DNA of 64,000 nt from Prauserella salsuginis. Lineage in GTDB: Bacteria; Actinomycetota; Actinomycetes; Mycobacteriales; Pseudonocardiaceae. Below are positions 4,842 to 34,924 of the stretch, in pieces. The stretch's first letter is position 1. Each line of letters opens with the position of its first letter. The position numbers and the translations under genes were made by a program. The notes under the pieces are model-generated. The model searched no databases. It saw only the letters and a list, made by a program, of their open reading frames with translations, and was not told the DNA's origin. The stretch lies in NCBI RefSeq assembly GCF_024648885.1, contig NZ_JANBBF010000010.1, positions 1 through 64,000 of the forward strand, in the 5' to 3' direction.

Positions 4842-4904
4842 CGTGTCCTGCATTCAGACCCGCGTGTTCTGCACTGAGAACCGCGTGTTCTGCATTCAGG
4901 GGGC
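4842..4904 (+). repeat. 21-bp-period array, three units, downstream of the TetR gene
   Basis: Units begin at 4842, 4863 and 4884 with CGTGTCCTGCATTC, CGTGTTCTGCACTG and CGTGTTCTGCATTC. The array starts 20 bp after the stop codon and reads in the direction of transcription. Degenerate further copies of CGTGTC/CGTGTT are seen near 4927 and 4968. It belongs to the same family as 5132-5314, 11575-11700, 16811-16873, 32473-32504 and 34883-34924. The stretch 4905-5131 holds no gene that I can support. Confidence 0.85.
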
Positions 4905-5131
4905 CCTGTCCTACGTCCCGGGACGCCGTGTCGTTTCGTCCGGGGACTGTTGGGCAAGTTCGGGGCGCGTGTTGCTCCCGAACGTGGCCCCCCATCGACG
5001 GGCTACCGGGTGACTGTGGTTCTTCGGGCCCCGGGGAGTGCGTTTCCGGGCCCGCGTTGTTCCCGCCCATCGCGCGGTTCCCGCCCCTCGCGAGATGTCA
5101 GGCACGGTCGGCGCGCCCTCGCGCGCCGACC

Positions 5132-5314
5132 GAGTGCAGGACACGCGGTTGCGAGTGCAGGACACGCGGTTGCGAGTGCAGGACACGCGGTTGCGAGTGC
5201 AGGACACGCGGTTGCGAGTGCAGGACACGCGGTTGCGAGTGCAGGACACGCGGTTGCGAGTGCAGGACACGCGGTTGCGAGTGCAGGACACGCGGTTGCG
5301 AGTGCAGGACACGC
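5132..5314 (-). repeat. Perfect tandem 21-bp array, 8.7 units, downstream of the PEBP gene
   Basis: Eight identical units start at 5132 and repeat every 21 bp, followed by a 15-bp partial unit to 5314. On the plus strand each unit begins GAGTGCAGGACACGCGG. Read on the minus strand this is CGTGTCCTGCACTC, the same core as in the array at 4842. The array ends 24 bp beyond the stop of the minus-strand PEBP gene and is in sense with it. The perfect identity of the units indicates recent expansion. All three frames stay open only because 21 is a multiple of 3. Confidence 0.95.
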
Positions 5315-5338
5315 GCGGATGGTCGGCGTCGGCTGGTG

Positions 5339-5887
5339 TCAGCCCTTGTTCTCGTAGAGGGCCGTCAGGGTCGCGCGGCCCAGCGTGTGGCCGAACATGT
5401 TGAACGACAGGAACGCGGGCCGGGACTCGTCGGGGATGTCGAGCGAGTCGACGTCCAGCGCGTGCACCACGAACATGTAGCGGTGCGGGCCGTGCCCGGG
5501 AGGCGGAGCGGCGCCGAGGTACTGGCGGACGCCGCCGTCGGTCGTGAGCATCTTGGCGCCCTCGGGCAGGTTGGCGCCGTTCGGGTCGCCCGCGCCGGTC
5601 GGCAGCTCGGTGACCGAGGCGGGGATGTTGTACACCGCCCAGTGCCAGAACCCGCTGACGGTCGGCGCGTCCGGGTCGTAGCAGGTCACGACGAAGCTCT
5701 TCGTGCCGTCGGGGAAGCCGGACCACGCCAGGTGTGGCGAGGTGTCCTCACCGCCGGCGCCGAACAGGCCGGACAGCTGCGGGGTCGGCAGTGTCTGGCC
5801 GTCGGCCACGTCGTCACTGCGCACGTCGAAGCTCGGCACCTGCGGCAGGAAGTCGTAGGGATTGAAGTTGAACGGCGCGTCGGCCAT
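5339..5887 (-). CDS. YbhB/YbcL-family (PEBP, Raf-kinase-inhibitor-like) protein
   Basis: A 182-residue protein with the phosphatidylethanolamine-binding-protein fold. The anion/ligand-binding motifs are visible: CYDPDAPTVSGFWHWAVYNIP (DPDAPT and the HW motif) and GHGPHRYMF. Bacterial members bind small anionic ligands; a physiological role is rarely known. There is no signal peptide, so it is probably cytoplasmic. ATG 5887 is preceded by GAGGAG at a good distance; the longer open frame upstream has no support. A perfect 21-bp tandem array follows the stop codon. Confidence 0.9.
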   Translation of the reverse strand: MADAPFNFNPYDFLPQVPSFDVRSDDVADGQTLPTPQLSGLFGAGGEDTSPHLAWSGFPDGTKSFVVTCYDPDAPTVSGFWHWAVYNIPASVTELPTGAGDPNGANLPEGAKMLTTDGGVRQYLGAAPPPGHGPHRYMFVVHALDVDSLDIPDESRPAFLSFNMFGHTLGRATLTALYENKG

Positions 5888-6143
5888 CTCACGCTCCTCG
5901 TGGTCTGTGGCACTGAGCCGGCTGGAGGTGTTGAAGTCCCCAGGGGCATGTCGTCGGGTGTATCGCTGACCCGGCCCCAGGGTAGGCAGCCGAATGCGGT
6001 GCGTCAGGGTGGGCGCGCCGCAGGCCGGTGCGTGCCGGTCGTGGCCCGTCGGAATCAGGGTCATATCGGGGTTGGCCCCAATGTCGGGGGCGGCGCGGTG
6101 GGCCTACTGTTCTCACAACCACGACAGGGGGGAATGAGGGCCC

Positions 6144-6926
6144 ATGGCAGCTCCGCGAATTCGGCGTCCGGCGCTGGCGATCGGCGGACTGGTGTTCGTC
6201 GGCGCGGGCGCGGCGATCGGGTTCGGGGTGTTCGACGAGGCGAGCGTGACGCACCGGCAGTCGGTGACCGGGGTGGAGCGGATCGAGCTCGACAAGGGTG
6301 CGGGCGATGTGGCCATCCGTGCCGGTGATGTCGAGGCTGCGAGGGTCGTCGAGACCAAGTCCTATCGGTGGGGCGACGACGACCCGGTGTTCGAGGTCCG
6401 CGACGACGTGCTGACACTGCCCGATTGCGGCATGTGGTGCACGACGACACACGAGATCGTCGTGCCGCGCGGTGTGGCGGTCTCCGGGGACATCGGTTCG
6501 GGCGAGCTCGACGTGACGGGTGCGGAGTCGCTGGATGTCGAGGTGGGCTCCGGCGGTGCGCGGGTCTCGGACGTCGAGGGGGACGCACGCGTGGATGCCG
6601 GTTCGGGACACGTCGAGCTCAGCGGCATCGGCGGCGAGGTGACCGTCGACGCCGGCTCCGGTGGGATCACCGGGCGCGGGCTGGCCGGGCCGGTGGAGGC
6701 CGAGTCCGGTTCGGGCGAGATCACCCTCGAGTTGTCCCGCCCCGCCGGTGTCACGGCCTCGACGGGCAGTGGGGACATCGCGCTGACGGTGCCGCGCGCC
6801 GACTATCGGATCGCGGGCGACAGCGGCAGCGGTTCGCGGGAGATCGGTGTCGACACGTCCCCGGGTGCGCGTCACACGCTGTCGCTCGACACGGGCAGTG
6901 GAGACGTCACGGTCCGCCGTCGCTAG
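6144..6926 (+). CDS. DUF4097-type surface protein with Gly-Ser-Gly beta repeats
   Basis: A 260-residue protein with one membrane segment near the N-terminus (about residues 10-28, LAIGGLVFVGAGAAIGFGVF). The rest is a repetitive beta-rich domain in which GSG/GSGG recurs every 15-20 residues (DIGSGELDV, EVGSGGARV, DAGSGHVEL, ESGSGEITL, STGSGDIAL, DTGSGDVTV). This is the beta-helix-like pattern of the DUF4097/DUF2807 families, which are usually outside the membrane. Two Cys in LPDCGMWC may form a disulfide. The function is unknown. ATG 6144 follows a GAGGG ribosome site. Confidence 0.75.
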   Translation: MAAPRIRRPALAIGGLVFVGAGAAIGFGVFDEASVTHRQSVTGVERIELDKGAGDVAIRAGDVEAARVVETKSYRWGDDDPVFEVRDDVLTLPDCGMWCTTTHEIVVPRGVAVSGDIGSGELDVTGAESLDVEVGSGGARVSDVEGDARVDAGSGHVELSGIGGEVTVDAGSGGITGRGLAGPVEAESGSGEITLELSRPAGVTASTGSGDIALTVPRADYRIAGDSGSGSREIGVDTSPGARHTLSLDTGSGDVTVRRR

Positions 6927-7060
6927 CCGTGTGCCGGGACGGCCGCGCGGGGTTGGCCGCGTGGCGGGGTCAGCCGTGCGGTGTCGTCAGCCGCGCGCGG
7001 GAGCCGTGACCGGCCGGTCGCGCCACGAGTTGTCTCGACCTGGCGGCTGTGGTCGCCGCG

Positions 7061-7088
7061 GGAACAAACGTCGCAGGTCGGACGTTAT
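7061..7088 (+). promoter_or_regulatory. Sigma-R/SigH-like promoter upstream of dnaK
   Basis: GGAAC (7061-7065) is separated by 18 bp from GTTAT (7084-7088), matching the GGAAT-N18/19-GTT pattern known for actinobacterial thiol/heat-stress ECF sigma factors. HAIR 1 (7101-7121) lies just downstream, where transcription would start. The same GGAAC-N18-GTT arrangement occurs before clpB. Confidence 0.65.
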
Positions 7089-7100
7089 GCTGGCAGAAAG

Positions 7101-7121
7101 GTTGAGTAGTCATCGCTCAAG
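7101..7121 (+). promoter_or_regulatory. HAIR operator 1 (HspR site) of the dnaK operon
   Basis: TTGAG (7102-7106) and CTCAA (7116-7120) form an inverted repeat with 9-bp spacing, matching the HspR-associated inverted repeat CTTGAGT-N7-ACTCAAG. It lies between the sigma-R-like box and the second promoter. HspR encoded at 11112 would bind here and repress until heat shock. Confidence 0.85.
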
Positions 7122-7127
7122 TCTGGG

Positions 7128-7156
7128 TTGACGACTCTCGGCCGGTACGGTTAGAA
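7128..7156 (+). promoter_or_regulatory. Housekeeping-type promoter of the dnaK operon
   Basis: TTGACG (7128-7133), a 17-bp spacer and TTAGAA (7151-7156) form a primary-sigma promoter. HAIR 2 begins at the next base, so bound HspR would cover the start site. Confidence 0.65.
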
Positions 7157-7177
7157 CTTGAGTGAGCCCCGCTCAGG
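7157..7177 (+). promoter_or_regulatory. HAIR operator 2 (HspR site) of the dnaK operon
   Basis: CTTGAG (7157-7162) and CTCAGG (7172-7177) form a HAIR-type inverted repeat with one mismatch from the consensus right half (ACTCAAG). It directly abuts the -10 box of the second promoter. Confidence 0.8.
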
Positions 7178-7252
7178 TCTCGGCGATACGCCGAGGCGCC
7201 CGGTCAGCCGGGCCGGTGGGGTGTCCACAGGATCAGTAGGAGGGAAAGACAC

Positions 7253-9124
7253 ATGGCGCGAGCGGTCGGCATCGACCTTGGTACGACGAACTCGGTCGTT
7301 TCCGTGCTCGAGGGCGGTGAGCCGACGGTCATCGCCAACTCGGAGGGCGCACGTACCACCCCGTCCATCGTCGCCTTCGCCAAGAACGGCGAAGTGCTCA
7401 CGGGGCAGCCCGCGAAGAACCAGGCCGTCACCAACGTCGACAGGACGATCCGGTCGGTCAAGCGGCACATGGGCACCGACTGGAAGACCGAGGTCGACGA
7501 CAAGGCCTACACCGCCCAGGAGATCAGCGCGCGCGTGCTGATGAAGCTCAAGCGCGACGCCGAGTCCTACCTGGGCGACGAGGTGACCGACGCGGTCATC
7601 ACCGTCCCGGCGTACTTCGAGGACGCCCAGCGCCAGGCCACGAAGGAAGCCGGCCAGATCGCGGGCTTGAACGTCCTGCGCATCGTCAACGAGCCGACCG
7701 CGGCCGCGCTGGCCTACGGCCTCGACAAGGGCGAGAAGGAACAGACCATCCTGGTCTTCGACCTCGGCGGCGGCACGTTCGACGTCTCGCTGCTGGAGAT
7801 CGGCGAGGGTGTCGTCGAGGTCCGCGCCACCAGTGGTGACAACCACCTCGGTGGTGACGACTGGGACGAGCGCATCGTCGACTGGCTGGTGGACAAGTTC
7901 AAGGCGTCCAACGGCATCGACCTGACCAAGGACCGCATGGCCCTCCAGCGCATCAAGGAGGCCGCGGAGAAGGCGAAGATCGAGCTCTCGAGCTCCTCGA
8001 CCGCCAACATCAACCTGCCGTACATCACGGTGGACGCGGACAAGAACCCGCTGTTCCTCGACGAGACGCTCTCGCGCGCCGAATTCCAGCGCATCACCTC
8101 CGACCTGCTCGAGCGTGCGCGTAACCCGTTCAACAACGTGGTGCGTGACGCGGGCATCTCGGTCGGCGAGATCGACCACGTCGTGCTCGTGGGTGGTTCC
8201 ACGCGGATGCCGGCCGTGACCGAGCTCGTCACCGAGCTGACGGGCGGCAAGGAGCCGAACAAGGGCGTCAACCCGGACGAGGTCGTCGCCGTCGGCGCGG
8301 GCCTGCAGGCCGGCGTGCTGAAGGGCGAGGTCAAGGACGTCCTGCTGCTGGACGTCACGCCGCTGTCGCTGGGTATCGAGACCAAGGGCGGCGTGTTCAC
8401 CAAGCTCATCGAGCGCAACACGACGATCCCGACCAAGCGCAGCGAGATCTTCTCGACGGCCGACGACAACCAGCCGTCCGTGCAGATCCAGGTGTTCCAG
8501 GGTGAGCGCGAGATCGCGGCGCACAACAAGAAGCTCGGCATGTTCGAGCTGACGGGCCTTCCCCCTGCGCCGCGTGGCGTGCCGCAGATCGAGGTCTCCT
8601 TCGACATCGACGCCAACGGCATCGTGCACGTCACGGCGAAGGACCTGGGCACCAACAAGGAACAGTCGATGACCATCACCGGTGGCTCCGCGCTGCCGCA
8701 GGAGGACATCGACCAGATGGTCAAGGACGCCGAGGCGCACGCCGAGGAGGACCAGCGGCGTCGCGAGGAGGCCGAGACCCGCAACCAGGCGGAGACGCTC
8801 TCCTACCAGACCGAGAAGTTCGTGACCGACAACGAGGACAAGTTGCCGGACGAGCTCAAGACCAAGGTCAAGACGGCGATCGAGGAGACCAACGAGGCGC
8901 TCAAGGGCGACGACATCGCCAAGGTCAAGGAGTCCGTCGAGAACCTCAACACGGTCTCGCAGGAGCTGGGCCAGGCGCTGTACGCCAACTCGGGTGCCGA
9001 GGGCGCGGCCGGTGCCGACGCCGGTGCCGCCGGCGCTGCGGGCGCGAGCGGTGACACCGGGTCCGCCAAGGCTGACGACGACGTCGTGGACGCCGAGATC
9101 GTCGACGAGGACGACAAGAAGTGA
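7253..9124 (+). CDS. dnaK: Chaperone DnaK (Hsp70)
   Basis: This 623-residue Hsp70 is the ATP-driven core of the DnaK-GrpE-DnaJ folding machine in the cytoplasm. The phosphate-1 motif [11 protein letters not shown] is at residues 6-16, the phosphate-2 motif [11 protein letters not shown] near 169, and the adenosine motif [10 protein letters not shown] follows. A substrate-binding domain comes next and the C-terminal tail is Ala/Gly-rich, ending [17 protein letters not shown] lies 7 nt upstream of ATG 7253. It is first in the operon dnaK-grpE-dnaJ-hspR; its stop overlaps the grpE GTG by 4 bp. The upstream region has two promoters and two HAIR operators, so HspR with DnaK as co-repressor is the expected feedback control. 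Confidence 0.98.
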
Positions 9125-9879
9125 CAGAGCGGGACGAGACCGAAGTCCGGGAAGAGGAGCCGGTCGTCGTTCGGGACCGTCGCAAGGTGGACCCGGAGTC
9201 GGGTGACCTGCGCGCTCCCGAGGACGGTGAGGCGGTCGAGGTGCCGGCGGGTGAGCTCGCGGGCACGGAGATCGGCGGGGCGGCCGGCGATGCCGGGCAG
9301 GCCGCGTCCGACGTCGACTCCGACCTGGCCAAACAGTTGGAGGAACGCACCGCGGACCTGCAGCGCGTCCAGGCCGAGTACGCCAACTACCGCAGGCGTG
9401 CCGACAGGGAGCGGGAGCAGCTCGCGGCGTCGGGCAAGGCGTCCCTGGCGGGCGACCTGCTGCCGCTGCTGGACGACGTCGAGCGCGCCGCCCAGCACGG
9501 CGACCTGACGGGCGCGTTCAAGTCGGTGGCGGACAAGCTGGTCGAGGCACTGGAGAAGGCCGGCCTGGAGCCGTTCGGCGCCGAGGGCGACGAGTTCGAC
9601 CCGAGCGTGCACGAGGCGGTGCAGCACGACACGTCGCCGGAGGTGTCCGGTCCGACCGTGACGACCGTGCTGCGGCGCGGCTACCGGTTCGGTGACCGGG
9701 TGCTGCGGGAGGCGCTGGTGGCCGTGACCGACCACGAGCCCGGTGAGGCACCCGCCGAGCCGGCCGTTCCGGCGGCGGACGCTCCGCCCGCAAGTGCGGA
9801 GGCGTCCGATGCGGAGGCGCCGATCGACCCGCCGGTCGAAGGTGAGCTCCCCATCGACGGCGATGAGCAACGGAACTGA
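9121..9879 (+). CDS. grpE: Nucleotide exchange factor GrpE
   Basis: A 252-residue protein that opens the DnaK nucleotide pocket. An acidic, low-complexity N-terminal region leads into the coiled-coil dimer helix (about residues 60-100, ending [18 protein letters not shown]). The conserved beta-domain with [16 protein letters not shown] and [20 protein letters not shown] follows. The C-terminal 60 residues are an Ala/Pro/Glu-rich extension, which makes it longer than E. coli GrpE (197 residues) but normal for actinobacteria. GTG 9121 overlaps the end of dnaK. Confidence 0.96.
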
Positions 9880-9906
9880 CGACAAGCGGAAAGGAGGAGA
9901 CGCCCG

Positions 9907-11115
9907 ATGAGCGCTCGGGAGTGGCTCGACAAGGACTTCTACCGTGAGCTGGGCGTCTCCTCCGACGCTTCCACGGACGAGATCAAGAAGGCGTACCGGA
10001 AGTTGGCGCGGGAGAACCATCCCGACGCCAACCCCGGCAACGCCGAGGCGGAGAAGAAGTTCAAGGCCGTCTCGGAGGCCTACGGCGTGCTGTCCGATCC
10101 GGACAAGCGCAAGGAGTACGACGAGGCGCGTGCCCTGTTCGGCTCCGGGCGCACCGGTGGCGGCTTCGGCGGGTTCCCCGGCGGCGGCCCCGGTGGCGCG
10201 GGCGGTGCCGGCGGATTCGACCTGGGTGACATCTTCGGCCAGGGCGCCGGCCCCGGTGGTCCCGGTGGCGCCGGTGGGTTCGGCGGCCTGGGCGACATGC
10301 TCGGCAACCTGTTCGGACGCCGCGGCGGCGCGGCGGGTGCGCAGCGTGGTCAGCGTGGCAGCGACGTCGAAACCGACGTGCGGATCGACTTCGCCGAGGC
10401 GGTCAAGGGCGCGACGCTGCCGCTGCGGCTGTCGAGCCCCGCGACGTGCGGTACGTGCGGCGGGAACGGCGCCCGGCCCGGCACGTCCCCGCGGACCTGC
10501 CCGACGTGCGCCGGAGCCGGACTCGTCAACCGCAACCAGGGTGCGTTCGCGTTCTCCGAACCGTGCCCGGACTGCCGCGGCAGCGGCCACCAGATCGACG
10601 ACCCGTGCCCGGAGTGCGCCGGTGAGGGCGTGTCCACGCGGACGCGCACGCTCACGGTGCGGATTCCGCCGGGCGTCGACGACGGCCAGAAGATCCGTCT
10701 CGCAGGGCAGGGCGAACCGGGCAAGGGCGGTGCGGCCGCAGGCGACCTGTTCGTCCGGGTGCACGTGCGCGCCGACGAGGTGTTCGGCAGGTCCGGCAAC
10801 GACCTGACGATCACCCTCCCCGTGGAGTTCACGGAGCTGGCGCTCGGCACGACACTGACCGTGCCGACGCTCGATTCGAAGGTGTCCGTGCGCGTGCCCG
10901 CGGGCACGGCGAGCGGCCGCGTGCTGCGGGTGCGCGGCAAGGGAATCGCCAAACGGGATGGCTCGCAGGGCGATCTCCTCGTTACGCTGCAGGTCGTCGT
11001 GCCCTCGAAGGTCGACGACGAAGCGAAGGCAGCACTCGAGAAGTACGCCGATGCGGTCGCAAAGCACGATCCGCGACCCGAGATCACTGCGCTGTTGCGC
11101 GACAGAGGTGAGTGA
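9907..11115 (+). CDS. dnaJ: Chaperone DnaJ (Hsp40, DnaJ1 type)
   Basis: A 402-residue class A J-protein that stimulates DnaK ATP hydrolysis. The J domain (about residues 9-75) contains the HPD motif in [10 protein letters not shown] long Gly/Phe-rich segment follows. Four zinc-binding CxxCxGxG repeats come next: [24 protein letters not shown] and CPECAGEG. Then comes the C-terminal substrate domain. All four zinc motifs are intact. GGAGG lies upstream of ATG 9907. Its TGA overlaps the start region of hspR. Confidence 0.97.
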
Positions 11116-11564
11116 TGTTCGGTTCAGGTTCGCCGGGATTCGGCATGCCGTACGGCGCCGACGAGGACACGCCCGTCTTCGTCATCTCCGTTGCGGCACA
11201 GCTTTCGGGGCTGCACGCGCAGACACTGCGGTCGTACGACCGGATGGGACTCGTCTCGCCCGGTCGTACGACCGGTGGCGGCCGCCGCTACTCCATGCGT
11301 GACATCGCACAGCTGCGTGAGGTGCAGCGGCTGTCCCAGGAGGAAGGCGTCAATCTCGCGGGCATCAAGCGGATCATCGAGCTGGAGAACCAGGTCGAGG
11401 CGCTGCAGGCCCGTGTGACGGAACTGGCGGAGGAACTGTCGTCGGCCTACGCGGCGGCGGAGCAGGCGGCGGCCGCCGTGCACGCGTCGTACCGCAAGGA
11501 CCTCGTGCCGTTCCGGAAGCAGAACGCCATGGTGGTCTGGAAGCCGGGCAGGCCGAAGCGCTGA
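11112..11564 (+). CDS. hspR: Heat-shock repressor HspR (MerR family)
   Basis: About 150 residues with an N-terminal MerR-type winged helix-turn-helix ([20 protein letters not shown], then [18 protein letters not shown]) and a coiled coil near residues 95-125. It binds HAIR sites, here at 7101, 7157 and 22773, and represses the dnaK operon and clpB until unfolded proteins titrate DnaK. GTG 11112 and ATG 11115 are both possible starts; both overlap the dnaJ stop, so translation is coupled. The gene is followed after 10 bp by a six-unit 21-bp-period array. Confidence 0.95.
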
Positions 11565-11574
11565 CCCCATCGTG

Positions 11575-11700
11575 CGTGTTCTGCGTTCGCGGGCCCGTGT
11601 TGTCGATTCGGGGATCCGTGTTGCGGTTTCCGGAGGCCGTGTTGCGGGTTCCGGGGCCCGTGTTGCACGTTCCGGAGTTCGTGTTGCGTGCGCCAGACAT
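11575..11700 (+). repeat. 21-bp-period array, six diverged units, downstream of hspR
   Basis: CGTGTT starts at 11575, 11596, 11617, 11638, 11659 and 11680, exactly 21 bp apart. The first unit (CGTGTTCTGCGTTC) matches the arrays at 4842 and 5132. The later ones (CGTGTTGCGG-TTCCGG) match those at 32473 and 34883, so this array links the two sub-types. It begins 10 bp after the hspR stop and runs in sense. Confidence 0.85.
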
Positions 11701-11785
11701 CGGACCGCTGCCCCGACGGCGCGTGGCCGTGCGACGGCGTGACCGCCCCGGCTGTTGGAGTGCACGGCCGCTGGAATGCACGGAC

Positions 11786-12490
11786 TCAGCGCAGCTGCTT
11801 GCTGAAGAACGCGAGCACCCGGCGCCACGAATCCTCGCTGGCTTCGTGGTCGTAGCCGAATCCGCTGATGCGGGCGACGAGGTTGAACGGCCCGAGCGGT
11901 AGCTGGTTGGCGAAGCTGTGCCGGGCCTGCGGATACTCCTTGACGTCGTGGGGAATTCCGCGTGCGGTGAGTGCGGTTTCGAGTTCGTCCGCGGCGCCCT
12001 TCAACGTCGGGTCCTTGCCGCCGAAGCTGGCGACCACCGGGCAGGCACCGTCGAGCACGGACCTGTCCTCCGGCAGCTGGCCGTAGTACGGCGCCGAGGC
12101 GTCGAATTCGCCGCCGGCCGCCACCAGCGCGAACCCGCCGCCCAGGCAGAAGCCCACGATGCCGACGCGGTCGTTGCAGTCCTCGCGGTCGGCCAGCGTG
12201 CGGCGCGTCGCTTCGAGATCGTCGAACGCTCTGCCTTCGCCGGCCAGCATCGCGCGGAACACCGACCGGACACATCGGACCAGTCCACCTCGCGAGTAGA
12301 GATCTGGCGCGAGTGCGACGAATCCCGCGGTGGCGAAGCGCTCCGTGATGAGGCGGGTGTCCCGGGGCAGGCCGAACACGTCGTGCACGACAACGACGCC
12401 GGGCCACGGTCCCGGCCCTGCGACGTCGGGCTGTGGCTCGGCGAGGTAGCCGTCGATCGTTCCGTCGGCGACGTCGATGGTGGTCTCCAC
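11786..12490 (-). CDS. Dienelactone-hydrolase-family protein
   Basis: A 234-residue alpha/beta hydrolase of the dienelactone hydrolase family. The nucleophile Cys lies in GFCLGGGFAL, the acid Asp in SFGGKDPT and the His in QARHSFAN, giving the Cys-Asp-His triad of true DLH enzymes. These open lactone rings in aromatic degradation, but many members act on unknown esters, and no aromatic-degradation genes lie nearby. GTG 12490 is preceded by GAGGAGG. It is encoded next to the two-component system in the same direction, with no evidence of a functional tie. Confidence 0.85.
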   Translation of the reverse strand: METTIDVADGTIDGYLAEPQPDVAGPGPWPGVVVVHDVFGLPRDTRLITERFATAGFVALAPDLYSRGGLVRCVRSVFRAMLAGEGRAFDDLEATRRTLADREDCNDRVGIVGFCLGGGFALVAAGGEFDASAPYYGQLPEDRSVLDGACPVVASFGGKDPTLKGAADELETALTARGIPHDVKEYPQARHSFANQLPLGPFNLVARISGFGYDHEASEDSWRRVLAFFSKQLR

Positions 12491-16709: not shown

Positions 16710-16810
16710 TCGTTCGAATCCGCCGAGCTAGCGGCACCAGTGCAGAACACGCGCGAGGACGCAGTCGCGCGACAGCGCAGCGTTGGGGGCGGCGTGGGGG
16801 CGACGGGGGC

Positions 16811-16873
16811 GCAGAACACGCGGTGCTGAGTGCAGGACACGCGGTGCTGAATGCAGAACACGCGGCCTGGAAC
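16811..16873 (-). repeat. 21-bp-period array, three units, downstream of the flavohemoprotein gene
   Basis: On the plus strand GCAGAACACGCGG or GCAGGACACGCGG begins at 16811, 16832 and 16853, exactly 21 bp apart; a degenerate copy lies at 16742. Read on the minus strand the core is CGTGTTCTGC. The array touches the stop of the minus-strand gene (5 bp away) and is in sense with it. Confidence 0.85.
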
Positions 16874-22347: not shown

Positions 22348-22660
22348 AGCTGACTTAGATGTGCGCCAAAGGTGCAAAACACCTCAATCAGGCACCTCCG
22401 ACGGCCGGTGCTCCACCCTCAGCAGCCTGCGGGCGCTTCTCGGTGAGGCGTTGTCACGCGGGCTTGGCGGGTCGAGTGTGACCAGGTTCAGGGCCGGCGC
22501 CACGTTGCCGCGTCCGTCTGTCGCGGTGGACTCCATCGCGCCCATCTGTCAGGTGTCGACGCTGGGCCTTTCCCGCTCCGAGGCGTCAGTGCCCGCGTGT
22601 GCCGCCGCGCCGGTTCGATCCCAGCGGGTTCAGCGCACGCACGCCACGGCGCGGAGCGCG

Positions 22661-22778
22661 CGACGTGGGGTCTGCGGGGGTCGCTCCCGCAACGGCTGAG
22701 GGACGTGGGGTCTGCGGGGGTCGCTCCCGCAACGGCTGAGCGACGTGGGGCCTGCGGGGTCGCCCTGCAATAATTGAG
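22661..22778 (+). repeat. Three 40-bp tandem hairpin repeats upstream of clpB
   Basis: Units at 22661-22700, 22701-22740 and 22741-22778 share GACGTGGGGTCTGCGGGG and an inner hairpin GCGGG-N7-CCCGC. Units 1 and 2 differ at a single base. Unit 3 is diverged, and its end (TAATTGAG, at the place of GGCTGAG) forms the left half of the clpB HAIR operator. Confidence 0.85.
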
Positions 22779-22869: not shown

Positions 22870-25476
<2,607 letters not shown>

Positions 25477-27765: not shown

Positions 27766-27805
27766 CCACTCACCATCGGGCGACCTCGAACAGCCCAGCG
27801 GTTTA

Positions 27806-27915
27806 GCGCCCCCAGGGGCACCTTGGGGCACTCAACGCCGCGAAGGTGCCTTGGGGCATTTGCCCACCCGTCGGCCCGACCACCGCCCCTCACGGACACG
27901 CTGGCGCATGGCTGC
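27806..27915. repeat. CCCAAGG-type palindromic module downstream of pyrE
   Basis: The left arm GCGCCCCCAGGGGCACCTTG begins at 27806 and the opposing arm AAGGTGCCTTGGGGC ends near 27858. A tail at 27880-27915 (GCCCGACCACCGCCCCTCAC onward) matches the interior of the module at 39007-39125. It is one of six loci of the family in this window, all beside gene ends; it probably forms a terminator-like RNA hairpin. Confidence 0.75.
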
Positions 27916-28019
27916 ATTTTCAACCCGTGTTCCCGAACGCAACGGATGTATCGGCATCACCCACAAGGGTGGGTACAACCGGCAGACTTCCTCCGTCCTC
28001 GCGATGAAGGGAGTCGACG

Positions 28020-29627
28020 TTGCCAACCGAACGTGCTGGGGTGACCCGCCGCAGTCTGCTGCGCTCGATCGGCGTGGCGGGTGGTGCGGGTGCGATGTTC
28101 GAATCGATGCGTGCGCTCGGCCTGGTCGCCTCGCCACAGGCACTGGCCGTCCCCGACTTCCGTGAACCACGCGCGGGCGATCTCGCCGCTGCGAACCGCG
28201 GCAAGACGGTCGTCATCCTCGGTGCGGGCGTCGCGGGGCTGACGGCGGCGTACGAACTCGGCAAGGCCGGCTACCGATGCGTCGTGCTGGAAGCGAAGGA
28301 CCGGGTCGGCGGTCGGGTATGGACGGTGCGCTCGGGCACCACCGAAACCGACCTCGACGGCCACACCCAGACCGCCCGGTTCAGCAAGGAGCCCGGCAGC
28401 TATCTCAACGCAGGGGCCGCGCGGATTCCGCAGTCGCACATCACCCTCGACTACTGCCGCGAGCTCGGCGTGCCGCTGGAACCGCTGTTGGCTCACAACG
28501 CCAACAACCTCATCCACGGCGAGGGTTCCGGTGCGCAGCAGTACCGCACGGTGAAGGCCGACTACCAGGGCTACGTGTCGGAACTGCTGTCGAAGGCCGT
28601 CGACCAGGGTGCGCTGGACGCAGAGCTCACCGCGGACGACAAGGAGGCGCTGCTGACGTTCCTGTCGTACTACGGCGACATCGGCGACAAGAACTCCGGG
28701 TTCGCGTACACCGGGAGCAGCAGGCGCGGGTACGAGGTCGAGCCGGGCGCCGCCGACCAGGAGGGCGTGCCGCTGGGGCCGCCGCCGTCGCTGTCCGAGG
28801 TGTTGTCGAGCCGGCTCGGGCGGTACCTGTCGTTCGAATCCCGCTACACCCACGCGATGACGTTGCTGCAGCCCGTCGGCGGGATGGACGCGATCACGAA
28901 CGCCCTGCACGAGGCGGCGAAACGCACCGGTGCGGAGGTGGTCACGGGCGCACCGGTGTCCGAGGTCCGCAACACCGACGCGGGCGTCGACGTCGTCTAT
29001 CGCGGTCCCGGCGGCAAGGACACCCGGATCAGCGGGGACTTCTGCGTGGCGACGTTGCCGCCGAACGTGATGGCGAAGATCCCGACGAACCTCGACTCCC
29101 GTGTGAACTCGGCCCTTCGGTTCCCGGAGGCCTTCTCCGCGGGGAAGATCGGGCTCGAGTACGACCGCCGGTGGTGGGAGCTCGACGAGCGGATCTACGG
29201 CGGGATCACCATGACCGACCTGGATGTGCTCAACATCTGGTACCCGTCGCACGGTTTCCACACCGACCGTGGCGTGGTCGTCGGGTACTACACCGAGGGG
29301 CCGTACTCCGAGGCCTACAGCCGGCTGACCCCCGTCGAACGTGAACGCCGCGCGCTGGCGCAGGGCGCGAAGATCCACGGCGAGAAGTACCGCCAGGGCG
29401 TGCAGGCGTCCTTCTCCGTGTCCTGGGAGCGCACGCCGCACATCGAGGGCGGCTGGGTGCACTGGCCGTCCCGCGATTCCGGCGAGTACGACCTGCTGAA
29501 CAAGCCCGCGGGCAACGTCTACTTCGCGGGCGACTGGCTCAGCCATTTCATCGCGTGGCAGGCCGGTGCGATCGACTCGGCGCGATACGTCGTGACGGCA
29601 TTGCACGACCGGGTGCGGAACTCGTAG
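28020..29627 (+). CDS. Tat-exported flavin amine oxidase / L-amino-acid-oxidase-like protein
   Basis: A 535-residue FAD enzyme. The N-terminus carries a twin-arginine motif (TRRSLLRSIG) and an Ala/Gly-rich stretch ending near QALA, so the folded flavoprotein is probably exported by Tat. The dinucleotide motif VVILGAGVAGLTAAYELG and GGRVWT are at the start of the FAD domain; GNVYFAGDWLSHFIAWQAGA near the C-terminus closes the FAD site. Such enzymes oxidise amines or L-amino acids with oxygen, giving peroxide. The start is TTG 28020 with AAGGGAG upstream; no ATG or GTG fits. The substrate is unknown. Confidence 0.87.
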   Translation: MPTERAGVTRRSLLRSIGVAGGAGAMFESMRALGLVASPQALAVPDFREPRAGDLAAANRGKTVVILGAGVAGLTAAYELGKAGYRCVVLEAKDRVGGRVWTVRSGTTETDLDGHTQTARFSKEPGSYLNAGAARIPQSHITLDYCRELGVPLEPLLAHNANNLIHGEGSGAQQYRTVKADYQGYVSELLSKAVDQGALDAELTADDKEALLTFLSYYGDIGDKNSGFAYTGSSRRGYEVEPGAADQEGVPLGPPPSLSEVLSSRLGRYLSFESRYTHAMTLLQPVGGMDAITNALHEAAKRTGAEVVTGAPVSEVRNTDAGVDVVYRGPGGKDTRISGDFCVATLPPNVMAKIPTNLDSRVNSALRFPEAFSAGKIGLEYDRRWWELDERIYGGITMTDLDVLNIWYPSHGFHTDRGVVVGYYTEGPYSEAYSRLTPVERERRALAQGAKIHGEKYRQGVQASFSVSWERTPHIEGGWVHWPSRDSGEYDLLNKPAGNVYFAGDWLSHFIAWQAGAIDSARYVVTALHDRVRNS

Positions 29628-29837
29628 TTCTCGGCGGCCCGGTTTTCGGGTACCCGGAAACCACCTGGACGGCTCGCCCGCGAGCGAACTGCATATCGGA
29701 ACCATAACGGCCGGGGCGAAAACCGCCCCTTAGGTGTTTTCCCGGACGCGGAATGTGGTCGCGGCGGGCTATGTTGACCGTGACAGGGGTTGGAATCACA
29801 GGGGGTTGTCGCCGGTCACCGGGGCAGGTGGGGTCTG

Positions 29838-30233
29838 ATGTTGGGGCTGTTGACCGTCATGGTCACCGTCGTGCATTTCCTCGCGCTCGCCTACATCGGC
29901 CTCGGCGGTTTTCTGGCGTGGTTGTGGCCGAGGTCGTTCTTCGTGCACGTGTTTTTCGCGGCGTGGGGCGTCGCGGTGAACGTGTTCACACTCGCCTGTC
30001 CGCTGACCGTCGCCGAGGACTTCCTGCGCCAGCAGCGCGGACTCGACCCGCTTCCCGGCGGCTTCAACGAGTACTACATCTACGGCACGCTGATTCCGCA
30101 TTCGATCCTGCCGTTCGTCGGCGTCGCCGCGTTGCTGCTGGTGGCGGTGTCCTACGTCGGGTTGTACGTGTTGTGGCGGCACCGCGTGCACGAGTCGAAC
30201 GCCGGTCACGGCCACTCCGTTCGCCTGGGCTGA
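29838..30233 (+). CDS. DUF2784 family membrane protein
   Basis: A 131-residue protein with about four membrane helices. The pattern of an HFLALAYIGLGGFLAW first helix, a cysteine in TLACPLTVAEDFLR and a YYIYGTLIPH loop matches DUF2784 proteins, whose function is unknown. ATG 29838 was preferred because AGGTGGGG lies just before it; the frame is open to 29790 without a ribosome site. Confidence 0.78.
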   Translation: MLGLLTVMVTVVHFLALAYIGLGGFLAWLWPRSFFVHVFFAAWGVAVNVFTLACPLTVAEDFLRQQRGLDPLPGGFNEYYIYGTLIPHSILPFVGVAALLLVAVSYVGLYVLWRHRVHESNAGHGHSVRLG

Positions 30234-30261
30234 GGAACCCGGTCGGCGGCAGGACGGGGCG

Positions 30262-30318
30262 GCGGAAGGACAGGGCTGCTGCGGGACAGGGCAGCGGAAG
30301 GACAGGGCTGCTGCGGGA
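30262..30318 (+). repeat. 25-bp direct repeat after the DUF2784 gene
   Basis: An identical 25-bp unit starting GCGGAAGGACAGGGCTGC occurs at 30262-30286 and 30294-30318 (32-bp period), 28 bp after the stop codon. It is unrelated to the 21-bp family. Confidence 0.8.
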
Positions 30319-30326
30319 GCCCGGCG

Positions 30327-30351
30327 CCCCGCCGCCCCGGCAGCGGCGGGG
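30327..30351 (+). terminator. Hairpin between the DUF2784 and SpoU genes
   Basis: CCCCGCCGC (30327-30335) pairs with GCGGCGGGG (30343-30351) around a 7-nt loop, upstream of the next promoter. Confidence 0.55.
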
Positions 30352-30412
30352 TGCGGCGGAGGTCGGCCCGGGCAGTGCCCTCGCCGATCGTGGCCCGCGG
30401 GAGAATGGCCTG

Positions 30413-31084
30413 GTGACGTCTGATCCGACCGGGGCCGGTGAGCCAGGGCCGACCGAGTGGGGCGCGAACCCCGAGGTGGGCGTGGGCCCGTGGGACGGCC
30501 CGTGGCCGAACGACGAACGCTACGACCCGGAACTGCTCGCCGAGGGCGACCGCCGCAACGTCGTCGACGCCTACCGGTACTGGCGGCGCGAGGCGATCGT
30601 CGCGGACATGGACACGCGGCGGCACCCGTTCCACGTCGCGATCGAGAACTGGCAGCACGACCACAACATCGGCACGGTCGTGCGGACGGCCAACGCGTTC
30701 GCCGCCGCGGCCGTGCACATCGTCGGCAAGCGCCGCTGGAACCGCCGCGGTGCGATGGTGACCGACCGGTACCAGCACCTCCACCATCACCCGACGGTCG
30801 ACGGGCTGGTCGAGTTCGCCGCGGCGCGGGCGCTGCCGATCGTGGCGGTCGACAACACCCCGGGCGCCGTGGCGCTCGAAACGGCGGACATGCCGCGCGA
30901 GTGCGTGCTGCTGTTCGGCCAGGAAGGCCCGGGCCTGTCGAAGGAGGCGCAGGACGCGGCGGCACTCGTCGTGTCGATCGCGCAGTTCGGCACGACCCGG
31001 TCGATCAACGCGGGTGTCGCCGCGGGCATCGTCATGCACACGTGGGTGCGCCAGCACGCCGACGTCGCCGACGCCTGGGACTGA
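30413..31084 (+). CDS. SpoU/TrmH-family RNA 2'-O-methyltransferase (Rv0380c-like)
   Basis: A 223-residue SPOUT methyltransferase that would methylate a ribose in tRNA or rRNA using S-adenosylmethionine. Motif 1 is NIGTVVRTANAF, motif 2 LLFGQEGPGLSKEA, and motif 3 TTRSINAGVAAGIVMHTW, which forms the knotted cofactor site. A 60-residue N-terminal extension precedes the domain. GTG 30413 has GAGAAT 6 nt upstream and no ribosome site, consistent with leaderless expression. Which RNA is modified cannot be told. Confidence 0.88.
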   Translation: MTSDPTGAGEPGPTEWGANPEVGVGPWDGPWPNDERYDPELLAEGDRRNVVDAYRYWRREAIVADMDTRRHPFHVAIENWQHDHNIGTVVRTANAFAAAAVHIVGKRRWNRRGAMVTDRYQHLHHHPTVDGLVEFAAARALPIVAVDNTPGAVALETADMPRECVLLFGQEGPGLSKEAQDAAALVVSIAQFGTTRSINAGVAAGIVMHTWVRQHADVADAWD

Positions 31085-31179
31085 CCGGCTACCCGGTCAC
31101 GACGGTCGTCCGCACCCGGACAGGGGTGGCCAGGCTGTTGGCGACGATGCAGGCGCGGTGCGCCCGCTCGGGGCGTTCA

Positions 31180-31764
31180 TCATTCCGGGTCGCGGTATTC
31201 CGGGTCGCGAATCCTGCTGCGGGGCGCCGTGAGGGGACGTCGGTAGTGGAGCAACGGGACGAGCTCCTGCGCGGGCGTTCGATCCTCCACTTGCTCGACG
31301 AACTGAAACCCCGACCGTTCGAGATTGCGTTGTGAGGCGACGTTTCCGGTCAGGGTCCGAGCGGTGAGTGCGTCGAGTCCACTGCCGGCCGCGAGCTGCG
31401 CGGCGAGTTCGAGGGCCCCGGTCGCGTGCCCGCCCCTTCGGGATTCGGGGTGGAGCCAGAATCCGACCTCGGCCTCCGTTGCGGTGACATCGAACAGGAC
31501 CAGGCTGCCGAGGAACGTGTCGTCGGTGACGTCGACGATGCTCAGCACCGCCAGGTCTCCTCGGGCGAGGCCTGAGGGCACCACGGTTCGAGCGAGGCGA
31601 TCCACCGACTCCGGCGTGTACTCGGACTCGGGGAGATGCCCGAACTGCCGCACGAGCGGATCCCGGGTGCCTTCCGCGTAACGGACGGCGTCGACGGGCG
31701 CGAGCGCGCGCAACGCACGTAGGTGATCGCTGACGGGTAACAGTGCCGGATCAATCACATCCAC
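31180..31764 (-). CDS. GNAT-family N-acetyltransferase (RimJ/RimL-like)
   Basis: A 194-residue acetyltransferase. The acetyl-CoA motif is seen in FWLHPESRRGGHATGALELA and the region NVASQRNLERSGFQFVE is the typical RimJ/RimL end of the fold. Targets of this subfamily are protein N-termini or small amines; the substrate here is unknown. The start is GTG 31764 with no strong ribosome site; GTG 31758 is an alternative. It is divergent from a TetR gene only 32 bp away, so that regulator may control it. Confidence 0.82.
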   Translation of the reverse strand: MDVIDPALLPVSDHLRALRALAPVDAVRYAEGTRDPLVRQFGHLPESEYTPESVDRLARTVVPSGLARGDLAVLSIVDVTDDTFLGSLVLFDVTATEAEVGFWLHPESRRGGHATGALELAAQLAAGSGLDALTARTLTGNVASQRNLERSGFQFVEQVEDRTPAQELVPLLHYRRPLTAPRSRIRDPEYRDPE

Positions 31765-31769
31765 TAAAC

Positions 31770-31785
31770 TAACAGTGATTGGTTA
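31770..31785. promoter_or_regulatory. Inverted repeat between divergent GNAT and TetR genes
   Basis: TAAC (31770-31773), eight bases, GTTA (31782-31785) lie in the only AT-rich patch of the 32-bp divergent interval. A single site here would control both genes. Confidence 0.4.
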
Positions 31786-31796
31786 AGGGGGAAGTG

Positions 31797-32399
31797 ATGA
31801 GTTACTGGGATGCCGCCAAAGCCGTACGCCGCAGCCGAGTCCTCGAACCGGAGGCCATCGCTCGCACGGCGGCGCGATTACTCGATCAGGTCGGCTACGA
31901 CGAGTTCTCACTGCGCCTACTCGCGGACTGGCTCGACGTCGCACCCGCCAGCCTCTACTCGCGCATTCGTGGCACATCGGACGCGCTGGATCTGGCGTTG
32001 GATCATGCGCTCGGTGCGGACCATTCGATCCAGCAGGCGATATCTCGAGGAGAAGCGGTCGAGATCCTGCGAGCGTTCTTCGAGCACCTGCTGGAACACT
32101 CCTGGGCCGTCCACGTCGTCGCTATGCGGCCGCCTCGTGGACCTGCTTACCTCGAGTTTTCGGAATCGCTGGTCCGGGGGTTGCAAGAATCCGGCCGATC
32201 CGACCCACTATCCCGGGCCTATGCGGCCACGAACCTGGTCATCGGCAGTGCGCTCACCTATCAGGCGGCCGGCCGCGAAGTGGACGCCCCCGTGAGTGCC
32301 GACCGGGCCCCGCATTACGAGGCACTCCATGCCGACATCGCGTTCACTCCCCACGATGTGTTGGACAAGGCGCTCGGCGAGCTGTTGAACGTCGGTTGA
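31797..32399 (+). CDS. TetR-family regulator
   Basis: A 200-residue regulator with an N-terminal helix-turn-helix (ARLLDQVGYDEFSLRLLADW then VAPASLYSRIRGTSDALDLA) and a C-terminal ligand domain of the TetR_C type. ATG 31797 has AAGGGGGAAG before it. It is divergent from the acetyltransferase gene. The base composition of this gene is somewhat less GC-biased than its neighbours (codons such as CGA, TCG and GAT are more frequent), which may hint at transfer. Confidence 0.85.
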   Translation: MSYWDAAKAVRRSRVLEPEAIARTAARLLDQVGYDEFSLRLLADWLDVAPASLYSRIRGTSDALDLALDHALGADHSIQQAISRGEAVEILRAFFEHLLEHSWAVHVVAMRPPRGPAYLEFSESLVRGLQESGRSDPLSRAYAATNLVIGSALTYQAAGREVDAPVSADRAPHYEALHADIAFTPHDVLDKALGELLNVG

Positions 32400-32472
32400 G
32401 TGAGTGGCGCCGCGGCCCGTCGATAGCCACTGTGGACAGACGGAGTTGAGACGGCACTGCGTATGCGAATTC

Positions 32473-32504
32473 GCAACACGGCCCCCGGAATCTGCAACAC
32501 GGCG
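32473..32504 (-). repeat. 21-bp-period repeat, two units, at the 3' end of the molybdopterin oxidoreductase gene
   Basis: GCAACACGGC starts at 32473 and 32494, 21 bp apart (minus-strand core CGTGTTGC). The second unit touches the stop codon at 32505. Confidence 0.75.
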
Positions 32505-34697
32505 TCAGCGGGTCGGGGTCAGGGTGACCGGGATTCCGCCCAGTGCGGCGGTTCCCGTGGGACCGTCGAGGGTCCGGTCGTCGGTGAGCACGTTGGCGTT
32601 CGCGCCGCTGTGCCGGGTCGCGACCGCCGTCCGCACGCCGGCTACGTCGTGTCCCCAGCCGTGCGGAATGCTCACCACACCGGGCCGCATCGCGTCGGTG
32701 ATCTCCACCGGCACGTCGATCGATCCGGTGCGGGCGGTGACGGTCACCGGGTCGCCGTCGACCAACCCCAGCCTGCCGGCGTCGTCGGGATGCAGTTGCG
32801 CCGTGCACCGGTTGCTGCCGCGCACGAGCGGTTCGAGGTTGTGCATCCACGAGTTGTTCGAGCTCAGTTGCCGTCTTCCGATCAGGATCAGGTCCGTCGG
32901 CCTGCCGGTGTCCTGGCCGTCGGAACCCGCGGACCCCGGCGCCGATCCCGCGGACCCGGCCAGCGAGGCCGCCAACCGCGGGATGTCCGACACGATCGCC
33001 TCCGGCGCCAGCTCGACCTTGCCGCTCTCGGTGGCGAGCACGTCGGGAATGCGTGGCTGCATCGGGCCGAGGTCGACGCCGTGCGGGGCGGCTTCGAGAT
33101 CGGCGAGCGTCAGGTCGAACGGTCCTGCGCGCAGCATCAGGTCGACGATCCGCTCCGGCCCGCGCCGGGTGTCGTCGGCGGTGACGCCGTAGCGGTCCGC
33201 CAGGTCGGCGGCGAGCAGGTCGTCGAGCGCGTCGACGTCGGGATCCGGCCCCTGGCCAGCGATGACGCCACTGAGGCGCAACAACGTCCGCCACTCCTGC
33301 GGAATCTCGGATGTGAGCGTGGCCGGGGTCCAGTTCGCGACGCTGCGTACCGCGAGCTGGTACAGCGTCACGTCGTAGTGCGGCCGTTCGAGAGGGCTTG
33401 GTGCGGGCAGGACCACGTCGGCGTGGCGGGTGGTCTCGTTGCGGTAGATGTCGATCGACACCATGAAGTCCAGACCGGCCACCGCGGCGTCGAGGCGGGC
33501 CGCGTTGGGCGCGCTCAGGCACGGGTTCCCCGCGATCGTGATGAGCGCTCGCACCTGACCGTCGCCCGGGGTTTCGATCTCGTCGGCGAGCGTCGCGACG
33601 GGCACTTCGCCGAGGACCTCGGGAAGGTCGCGTACGCGGGTGCGGCGGCGTCCGGCCCGGAACGGCTTGCTCGGCGCGGTGTTCGCCTGGCCCGCGGCCG
33701 CGAGCGGGAACATCGCGCAGCCCTCACGGTCGAGGTGGCCGGTGAGTACGTTCAGCACGTCAACGAGCCAGCTGGTCAGCGTGCCGAACTCCTGCGTCGT
33801 GGTGCCGATCCGGCCGTAGACCGCGGCCCGGTCGGCGGCGGCGAGGTCACGGGCGAGCCGCCGGATGTCGGCCGCTGCCAGGCCCGTCGCGTCGGCGACC
33901 GTTTCCGGGCTGAACTCCGCCGCCAGCTCGCGCACTTCGTCCACTCCGGTGACGTGGCCGGCGAGCGTGCCCAGTCGTACGAGGTTCTCGGCGAACAGCG
34001 TGTGCACCATCGCCAGCAACAGCAGGGCATCGGCGCCCGGTCGGATGGCGTGGTGCTCGTCGGCGAACTCGGCCGAACGCGTGCGCCGCGGGTCGACCAC
34101 GACGATCCGCCCGCCGCGGTCACGGATCCCGCGCAGCCGCGACCGCACGTCACCGGCCGTCATCAGGCTGCCGTTGGACACGAGCGGGTTCGCGCCGAGC
34201 ACGAGGAGGTACTCGGTGCGGTCCAGGTCGGGCACGGGGATCGTCATGGCGCCGCCGAACAGGTACCCCGACGAGTAGTGCTTCGGGATCTGGTCGACAG
34301 TGCCGGCCGTGTAGACGTTCGTGGTGCGCAGCGCCTTGACGAGTGCGCGCAGGTACACCGAGGCGGACACGTTGTGCGAAACGGGGTTGCCGACGTAGAC
34401 GGCCACCGCGTCCCGGCCGTTGGCGTCGATGATGCCGGGCAGGCGGGCGTCGATCTCGGCGAACGCCTCGTCCCACGACGCCTCGACGAGTTCGCCGCCG
34501 CGGCGGATCAACGGTGTTCGCAGGCGGTCCGGGTCGTGGTGCAGCGCGCCGAGCGACGCCCCCTTCGGGCAGACGTAGCCGTGGGAGAACACGTCGTCGC
34601 GATCGCCTCGGACTCCCGTGACCGTCGCGGCGTCCAGCGTCACCTCCAGCCCGCAGGTCGCCTCACACAGCGGACAAGTGACATATGCCGTTGTCAT
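32505..34697 (-). CDS. Molybdopterin-dependent oxidoreductase (formate-dehydrogenase/BisC-like)
   Basis: A 730-residue catalytic subunit of the DMSO-reductase superfamily. Cys8, Cys11, Cys15 and Cys43 bind a [4Fe-4S] cluster (CPLCEATCG, then VCPKGASLG). The molybdopterin guanine dinucleotide domains follow, with a C-terminal dinucleotide-binding domain that includes SSNNSWMHNLEPLVRGSNRC. A low-complexity linker, LAGSAGSAPGSAGSDG, precedes it. The natural substrate is unknown; formate dehydrogenase is a common but unproven label. No electron-transfer subunit, FdhD or cofactor genes are adjacent, so it is an orphan enzyme, as in several actinobacteria. Confidence 0.9.
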   Translation of the reverse strand: MTTAYVTCPLCEATCGLEVTLDAATVTGVRGDRDDVFSHGYVCPKGASLGALHHDPDRLRTPLIRRGGELVEASWDEAFAEIDARLPGIIDANGRDAVAVYVGNPVSHNVSASVYLRALVKALRTTNVYTAGTVDQIPKHYSSGYLFGGAMTIPVPDLDRTEYLLVLGANPLVSNGSLMTAGDVRSRLRGIRDRGGRIVVVDPRRTRSAEFADEHHAIRPGADALLLLAMVHTLFAENLVRLGTLAGHVTGVDEVRELAAEFSPETVADATGLAAADIRRLARDLAAADRAAVYGRIGTTTQEFGTLTSWLVDVLNVLTGHLDREGCAMFPLAAAGQANTAPSKPFRAGRRRTRVRDLPEVLGEVPVATLADEIETPGDGQVRALITIAGNPCLSAPNAARLDAAVAGLDFMVSIDIYRNETTRHADVVLPAPSPLERPHYDVTLYQLAVRSVANWTPATLTSEIPQEWRTLLRLSGVIAGQGPDPDVDALDDLLAADLADRYGVTADDTRRGPERIVDLMLRAGPFDLTLADLEAAPHGVDLGPMQPRIPDVLATESGKVELAPEAIVSDIPRLAASLAGSAGSAPGSAGSDGQDTGRPTDLILIGRRQLSSNNSWMHNLEPLVRGSNRCTAQLHPDDAGRLGLVDGDPVTVTARTGSIDVPVEITDAMRPGVVSIPHGWGHDVAGVRTAVATRHSGANANVLTDDRTLDGPTGTAALGGIPVTLTPTR

Positions 34698-34882
34698 GGA
34701 TCGATGGTGACACCGGACACATCGGGCTGTCGATGTTCACGAGCGCAGCGGGAGCGGCCTGTGGCAGAAGAGCGGTCGTAGCAGCGGGCAATCGCCGTCT
34801 GGGCGCGCGGCACCGGAATCCGCAATATGGCCCCAGGCGGCACCGTCGCGTCGATGAGGCGGTGCCCGGGCGACGGGCGGGC

Positions 34883-34924
34883 GCAACACGGCCCCTGGAA
34901 TCCGCAACACGGGGCCCGGCACCG
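34883..34924 (-). repeat. 21-bp-period repeat, two units, downstream of the LacI-type gene
   Basis: GCAACACGG starts at 34883 and 34904, 21 bp apart; a degenerate copy, GCAATATGG, lies at 34822. The array is in sense with the minus-strand LacI-type gene whose stop is at 34943. The rest of 34698-34882 must hold the promoter of the molybdopterin oxidoreductase gene; nothing else is recognised. Confidence 0.75.

Follow-up and report, generated by a model that had tools for sequence, protein, structure and literature searches.

Tandem arrays of a 21-bp DNA unit stand at the downstream ends of genes in Prauserella salsuginis (Actinomycetota; Pseudonocardiaceae; genome G000, 5.64 Mb, 69% G+C). They were noticed in a 64,000-nucleotide stretch of this genome (contig NZ_JANBBF010000010.1, positions 1 to 64,000; hereafter the window) and were followed through the genome and into its relatives. 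The units repeat at a fixed period and share the core CGTGTY, which is constrained, and sister species largely keep the arrays at orthologous places and in the same orientation, with turnover of unit type and number. We tentatively propose that they are DNA-level binding arrays at the ends of transcription units which evolve as lineage dialects, an explanation to which we give somewhat less than an even chance.

Two unit types prevail in P. salsuginis. Type A consists of CGTGTYCTGCRYTC and a 7-bp linker, and type B resembles CGTGTTGCGNNTTCCGGGGCC. The genome-wide unit search suggested in an earlier note on the window places the family far above chance, with 213 matches to the strict unit CGTGTYCTGCRYTC against 0 in the reversed control; the looser pattern CGTGTYNYGNNNTC gave 393 matches against 19. 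The fixed spacing described there is borne out, since neighboring units lying 19–23 bp apart are exactly 21 bp apart in 130 of 141 cases in the P. salsuginis stretches and in 257 of 268 at 77 other loci. Units run head-to-tail within each array, and separate, opposed arrays are present in some gaps. Array density is uneven along the genome, and the window is richer than other DNA: under one rule, it holds five arrays and C1:1-400000 holds four (L213-L232). These two regions alone served for the density, the other loci having been fetched for holding units.

The position of the arrays relative to genes was determined with genes called by a codon-usage script. Arrays of at least two units were collected from 35 P. 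salsuginis stretches (window included), 55 loci of other Prauserella, 14 loci from metagenome-assembled genomes (MAGs) labelled Actinophytocola and 8 from Haloechinothrix. These hold 168 arrays, of which 5 lie within genes and 17 at locus edges; the remaining 146 were placed in 63 convergent, 74 co-directional and 9 divergent gaps. Gap bases in unselected P. salsuginis DNA are 13/54/32% convergent, co-directional and divergent, so the placement is convergent-rich and divergent-poor (p about 1e-28). Taken by themselves, the eight Haloechinothrix arrays show no significant bias (p=0.12). Among gaps of at least 60 bp in the unselected DNA, 6/50 convergent, 3/133 co-directional and 0/73 divergent ones carry an array. 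Random position, which the earlier note had named as a possible refutation, is thus not what was found: divergent gaps make up 32% of gap bases and take 9 of the 146 arrays. Genus g7 has 33 placed arrays (16 convergent, 17 co-directional, 0 divergent) and one more within a gene. Genus g3 has 31 (22/8/1 in the same order), some of them perhaps counted on both strands because the units are partly palindromic.

Two arrays that seemed out of place follow RNA genes. The L138 array, scored as divergent, lies 67 bp after a tRNA-Leu gene, and the L118 array, seemingly 294 bp from a gene, begins about 120 bp after a small signal recognition particle (SRP) RNA gene; both are in sense orientation. The anchor of the arrays therefore seems to be the end of the transcript, not the stop codon. 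ARAGORN, run on 33 loci, detected one tRNA, Rfam gave three matches in 12 loci, and neither revealed a further RNA gene adjoining an array in these loci. One locus of P. isguenensis (L105) has a Guanidine-III riboswitch match at 4138-4202, about 500 bp from its array.

Gaps of three P. salsuginis stretches were compared with those of six sister genomes. Gaps without an array in P. salsuginis are also empty in the sisters in 73/73 comparisons. Array-bearing gaps also carry an array in 9/9 comparisons with P. alba (G046), 5/6 with P. aidingensis (G397), 6/8 with P. halophila (G037), 5/7 with P. isguenensis (G027), 1/6 with G184 and 2/4 with G398. In the reverse direction, 24/24 arrays of other named species map to P. 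salsuginis gaps that hold units; the presence of arrays had guided the choice of most of the P. salsuginis stretches concerned, though not of three places. Of 50 orthologous array pairs, 7 were unscorable for orientation, and the orientation is the same in 42 of the 43 usable ones; at least 3 of the 50 duplicate a comparison made under another locus id. The unit type is switched in 12/37 pairs, and the unit number is equal in 11/42 and different in 31/42. The gap between the TetR and PEBP genes illustrates this, with AAA and nine A units in P. salsuginis, BBBB and BBB in P. alba, seven B and five B in G184, and a further type in G398. Beyond the genus, lag-21 identity detected arrays at the hspR gene end in 12 of 34 genomes, most of them selected because they carry arrays; the array call in G144, among the 12, is doubtful. 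Place and orientation are thus largely kept between sister species, and unit type and number change.

At many loci, a 66-bp companion element is interposed between units and shares their strand. It has 27 matches in the P. salsuginis stretches (one place counted twice), 20 of them adjoining a unit, and 23 in the loci of other Prauserella, 18 adjoining a unit. No match was found in the g7, g3, MAG and Haloechinothrix loci (20, 20, 14 and 8 loci, respectively). In the window, the copy within the flavohemoprotein array (16742..16806, minus strand) has no counterpart in the orthologous arrays of three sisters (G046, G037 and G027). Judged by this absence, array sequence seems to pass between loci.

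The core is the constrained part of the unit. For the constraint test, register alone decided which unit served as the middle one of three, and only the units beside it had to carry the core. In stretches fetched by orthology, the core differs from that of its neighbors in 10/303 comparisons and the other bases in 130/560 (p=1e-16); unit bases 11, 12 and 21 are the most variable. Non-core positions also differ strongly among themselves in g3 and g7 (p below 1e-14), the only contrast that counts in these genera because core patterns had been used to retrieve their loci. Conservation in g3 extends across the junction of one unit with the next. Free drift of a satellite would not be expected to produce such a pattern.

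The arrays have a limited taxonomic reach and vary by lineage. The A-type pair was found, among the matches listed in a genome_contigs scan, in Prauserella, Haloechinothrix halophila and two MAGs labelled Actinophytocola, and an order-wide sample yielded it in 4/397 genomes, all of the window's genus. Three CGTGTY cores at 21-bp spacing occur in 54/249 Pseudonocardiaceae genomes and 18/46 genera; at least nine such matches are present in 36 genomes, which belong to eight genera, with maxima of 362 (G397) and 350 (G508). The reversed control is mostly 0 and reaches 29 in G472 and 20 in G488, and the scan, which required CGTGTY, left variant cores such as CGAGTT uncounted. The non-core remainder is CGTGTTGGCCGYTCCGGNNNG-like in g7, CGTGTCGTCCRTCYRATCACG-like in g3 and of a CGTGTYRGC type in G398. 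At the G398 locus L188, orthologous to window 4821 and 11564, this third, CGTGTYRGC-like unit type stands where the sisters have A/B arrays. In addition, the g3 loci L207 and L211 carry CGTGTCGTCC units together with CGAGTTCGCC-like units on the opposite strand; given such variant units, strict CGTGTY scans undercount the family. A wider actinobacterial family was rejected, as 33 class-wide matches outside Pseudonocardiaceae, in 20/391 genomes (1-5 each), compare with 19 in 15 genomes in the control. A virus origin was likewise set aside, the A-type pair having no match in viral_contigs.

The orientation of the arrays is biased rather than uniform. The earlier note had described them as always sense to the preceding gene, which fails: co-directional gaps in Prauserella and its close kin hold 49 sense and 25 antisense arrays (p=0.007; P. 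salsuginis alone, 16 and 8, p=0.15). Co-directional gaps in g7 and g3 hold 13 sense and 12 antisense arrays. The random strand that the note had named as a refutation is borne out in part. Convergent gaps are uninformative on strand because either direction is sense to one neighbor. Arrays in such gaps lie closer to the sense stop in 19/28 cases in P. salsuginis (p=0.023), 18/29 in other Prauserella (p=0.07), 2/5 in the MAGs and 0/1 in Haloechinothrix. In our reading, the gene-end position is the general trait, and the sense bias belongs to Prauserella and kin.

An RNA structure was looked for in the arrays and rejected. Single-type arrays have no stable fold on either strand (mean z -0.06 to -1.35), and at other loci the sense strand folds slightly better than the antisense strand. 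Covariation was absent at the one junction pair tested, linker base 15 against base 6 of the next unit (p=0.25). An intrinsic terminator inside the arrays was not found, on the grounds of the weak folds and the absence of any Rfam match in the window; U-runs were not scanned separately. Of the two functions that the earlier note had put forward, action at mRNA 3' ends is disfavored by the weak folds, the lack of covariation at that pair and the frequent antisense copies, and the idea of an array that binds a putative protein holds up. A stop codon encoded by the unit was also considered and rejected: CCCG follows the stop at 4/29 arrays and at 15/358 stops generally, and the bases before the stop are not unit-like. 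Translation of the arrays was set aside since they lie mostly 3' of stop codons.

We consider that the arrays may be head-to-tail DNA recognition sites, one per 21 bp or two helical turns, with which a number of Pseudonocardiaceae mark where their transcription units end. A putative sequence-specific protein would recognize CGTGTY on a single helical face and align along the array, and its most likely effect would be to stop or insulate run-on transcription, above all between convergent genes. The 15 bp outside the core would follow a dialect particular to each lineage, and one dialect might take over from another at the same site through duplication inside an array and copying from array to array, with site and orientation persisting. 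We prefer DNA over RNA as the level of action because antisense arrays are common, the folds are weak and some arrays start after a terminator-like hairpin. A fuller version, which we regard as rather unlikely as a whole, is a Pseudonocardiaceae protein-DNA system in which a cooperative, two-turn-phased array ends or insulates transcription units and whole sets of sites switch dialect in place around the fixed CGTGTY. Such a system would be the bacterial equivalent of roadblock terminator arrays and would act at protein, tRNA and SRP RNA genes alike.

Several observations weigh against binding arrays at transcription-unit ends. Their distribution is sparse and patchy: certain close genomes lack arrays altogether, and an array is missing at 5/6 (G184) and 2/4 (G398) of the syntenic P. 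salsuginis array gaps. RNA genes account for two arrays only, and most antisense and divergent arrays are left unexplained. We identified no protein that binds the arrays; no search for proteins co-occurring with them was made. Replacement of hairpin terminators by the arrays was rejected, the evidence being a trend at best; the somewhat fewer strong stems beside arrays in convergent gaps count as modest support for a block or insulator at transcript ends. In such gaps, leaving out those with only one unit or an uncertain chain, stems of at least 9 pairs occur in 18/56 gaps with arrays and 28/61 without (Fisher p=0.14, a weak contrast), and a rank test on stem length gave p=0.015. Strong stems are found in 2/20 array gaps and 18/37 array-free gaps of 90-170 bp, a difference that disappears at 170-400 bp, and short gaps with arrays may simply lack room for a hairpin. 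A first stem test in P. salsuginis alone showed no difference (15/27 vs 31/58), and stems at the hspR end gave 1/12 vs 7/22 (p=0.21). By eye, some arrays lie 3' of a terminator-like hairpin (L114, L120 and L211). A selfish repeat that is tolerated only at gene ends would give much of the observed pattern.

Such a repeat, a constrained selfish or neutral minisatellite, is the main and serious rival, although on balance we place it on the unlikely side. It would spread by slippage and inter-locus copying and survive mainly in gene-end gaps, promoters and genes being intolerant of repeats, and its core would be kept for an amplifying or recombining enzyme. The changes of unit number and type between orthologous arrays agree with this, as do the patchy distribution within genera and the closer likeness of units within than between arrays (by eye). 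The companion element, inside arrays at many loci and missing at the orthologues of the 16742 copy, also fits, and the scarcity in divergent gaps is predicted by tolerance as well. On the other hand, the gaps that stay empty in every sister comparison imply slow movement to new places, the core is strongly constrained, and the sense bias in Prauserella and kin is left unexplained. We know of no amplifying or recombining enzyme for the arrays, which we count against this explanation.

The arrays could instead be topology elements that recruit gyrase or a nucleoid protein at the positive supercoils between convergent genes, as reported for clusters of the repetitive extragenic palindromic (REP) sequences and bacterial interspersed mosaic elements (BIMEs). 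The strong convergent enrichment, the occurrence of arrays in either direction and the two-turn period are in its favor, and, according to an excerpt of PMC1525189, REP sequences are often located between convergent genes and are gyrase sites. Since the arrays lack a stable fold and about half of the placed ones lie in co-directional gaps, we hold this to be quite unlikely.

An RNA element, transcribed at mRNA 3' ends and recognized by a protein or ribonuclease through CGUGUY every 21 nt, appears improbable to us. It would account for the roughly 2:1 sense bias in Prauserella and kin and for the convergent arrays lying closer to the sense stop in P. salsuginis and other Prauserella, a bias that is absent from the small MAG and Haloechinothrix sets. 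In addition, 12/29 listed arrays begin 1-10 bp 3' of a stop, a strong hairpin follows some arrays, as judged by eye (L131 15700), and sense strands at other loci fold slightly better. The weak folds and the absent covariation at the tested pair argue against it, as do the arrays 3' of terminator-like hairpins and the antisense arrays, which make up one third of co-directional arrays in Prauserella and kin and about half in g7 and g3.

Elements of the REP/BIME kind, mobilized by a REP-associated tyrosine transposase (RAYT; Y1_Tnp), would match the copy number above 100 and the gene-end position, and the four genomes with a PF01797 match among 16 searched (G184, G046, G528 and G174) all carry arrays. 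This explanation is highly improbable and largely refuted by the absence of such a match from P. salsuginis and the array-rich G398, G508, G518, G556 and G118; the lack of a stable fold and the head-to-tail rather than alternating units also speak against it. WhiA, whose motif is GACAC, was dropped as a candidate reader because in B units an A replaces the first G of that motif.

In the window itself, the repeat is present at all six loci reported earlier, and a scan found 0 arrays within genes or just upstream of them; two single weak B matches inside genes (9.0 and 12.2 bits) are at about the chance level of the reversed control. The earlier names of the six neighboring genes are consistent with Pfam (eight genes checked, seven with a family), hspR being supported only as a MerR-type regulator. 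Attachment to gene ends was upheld, and the stop-to-array distance was revised from 0-24 bp to a measured 3-31 bp between the sense stop and the first core. Four of the window arrays sit between convergent genes. Three A-type units (CGTGTY CTGCRYTC, period 21) occupy 4842..4904 on the plus strand, 20 bp 3' of the TetR stop, and are followed by decayed B-like units to about 4990 (by eye). Facing them, nine near-identical A-type units (5125..5313, minus strand, reading left) begin 25 bp 3' of the PEBP stop. The mixed array ABBBBB (11575..11700, plus strand) lies 10 bp 3' of the hspR stop, a gene end that also bears arrays in P. alba, P. aidingensis, P. halophila and G398. On the minus strand, three A-type units (16800..16862) lie 16 bp 3' of the flavohemoprotein stop, with an extra A-type unit (16738..16751) on the far side of the companion element. 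Also on the minus strand, two B-type units (CGTGTTGCGGATTC-like; 32460..32501) start 3 bp 3' of the molybdopterin oxidoreductase stop, and two units, one strong B-type and one partial (34870..34911), start 31 bp 3' of the LacI stop; a single B-type unit (34809..34829, minus strand) lies farther along the LacI gap, whose orthologous place in P. alba holds AAA. The window has other tandem repeats at 22660-22770 (40 bp), 46791-46845 (18 bp) and 50985-51132 (15 bp), with unit sequences outside the array family.

A constrained, place-fixed, two-turn-phased and lineage-varying repeat offers a direct test of whether a protein marks actinomycete transcript ends. It is also a natural experiment in which many sites of one genome switch sequence together and the places and directions stay. 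Full-text searches of open-access literature aimed at the array family found no description of it (subscription journals lay outside their scope), and none of the 15 papers listed, among 24 that contain one of six unit strings, concerns actinomycetes by its title.

Several known systems share some of these features. REP sequences, according to excerpts of PMC2817692 and PMC1525189, exceed 100 copies per genome, are extragenic and lie at gene ends, often between convergent genes. The arrays resemble REP/BIME in being mostly extragenic and at gene ends (5/168 within genes), with 63/146 placed ones convergent. They differ in having no palindromic, hairpin-forming unit, in repeating head-to-tail every 21 bp where REP/BIME clusters alternate, in lacking a RAYT in P. 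salsuginis and five array-rich genomes, and in having dialects that vary by lineage about a single core. Mycobacterial interspersed repetitive units (MIRUs) are actinobacterial minisatellites of variable copy number, as stated in an excerpt of PMC3635867. Like them, the arrays are tandem repeats with a variable number of units at fixed intergenic sites. The MIRU unit is 40-100 bp long, with an intergenic place and orientation, but the array unit is 21 bp and comes in several interchangeable types; the two are set apart here by description, not by sequence.

The DNA uptake sequence (DUS) dialects of Neisseriaceae keep a short core with flanks that differ by lineage, are associated with terminators and number thousands of copies, commonly within genes, as excerpted from PMC3630211. 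The arrays are similar in their constant CGTGTY core (which the scan itself required) and lineage-specific remainders, but P. salsuginis has 213 strict units, arranged in arrays, and few arrays lie within genes. We know of no competence in the array-bearing lineage. Finally, arrays of TTF-I sites (Sal boxes) act as protein roadblock terminators in eukaryotic ribosomal DNA. There, as here, tandem sites lie downstream of a transcription unit; the setting of the arrays is Pseudonocardiaceae rather than eukaryotic ribosomal DNA, and the mechanism would be a proposed one. Taken together, the largely constant place and direction of the arrays between sister species and the change in much of the motif point to an undescribed recognition system at gene ends.

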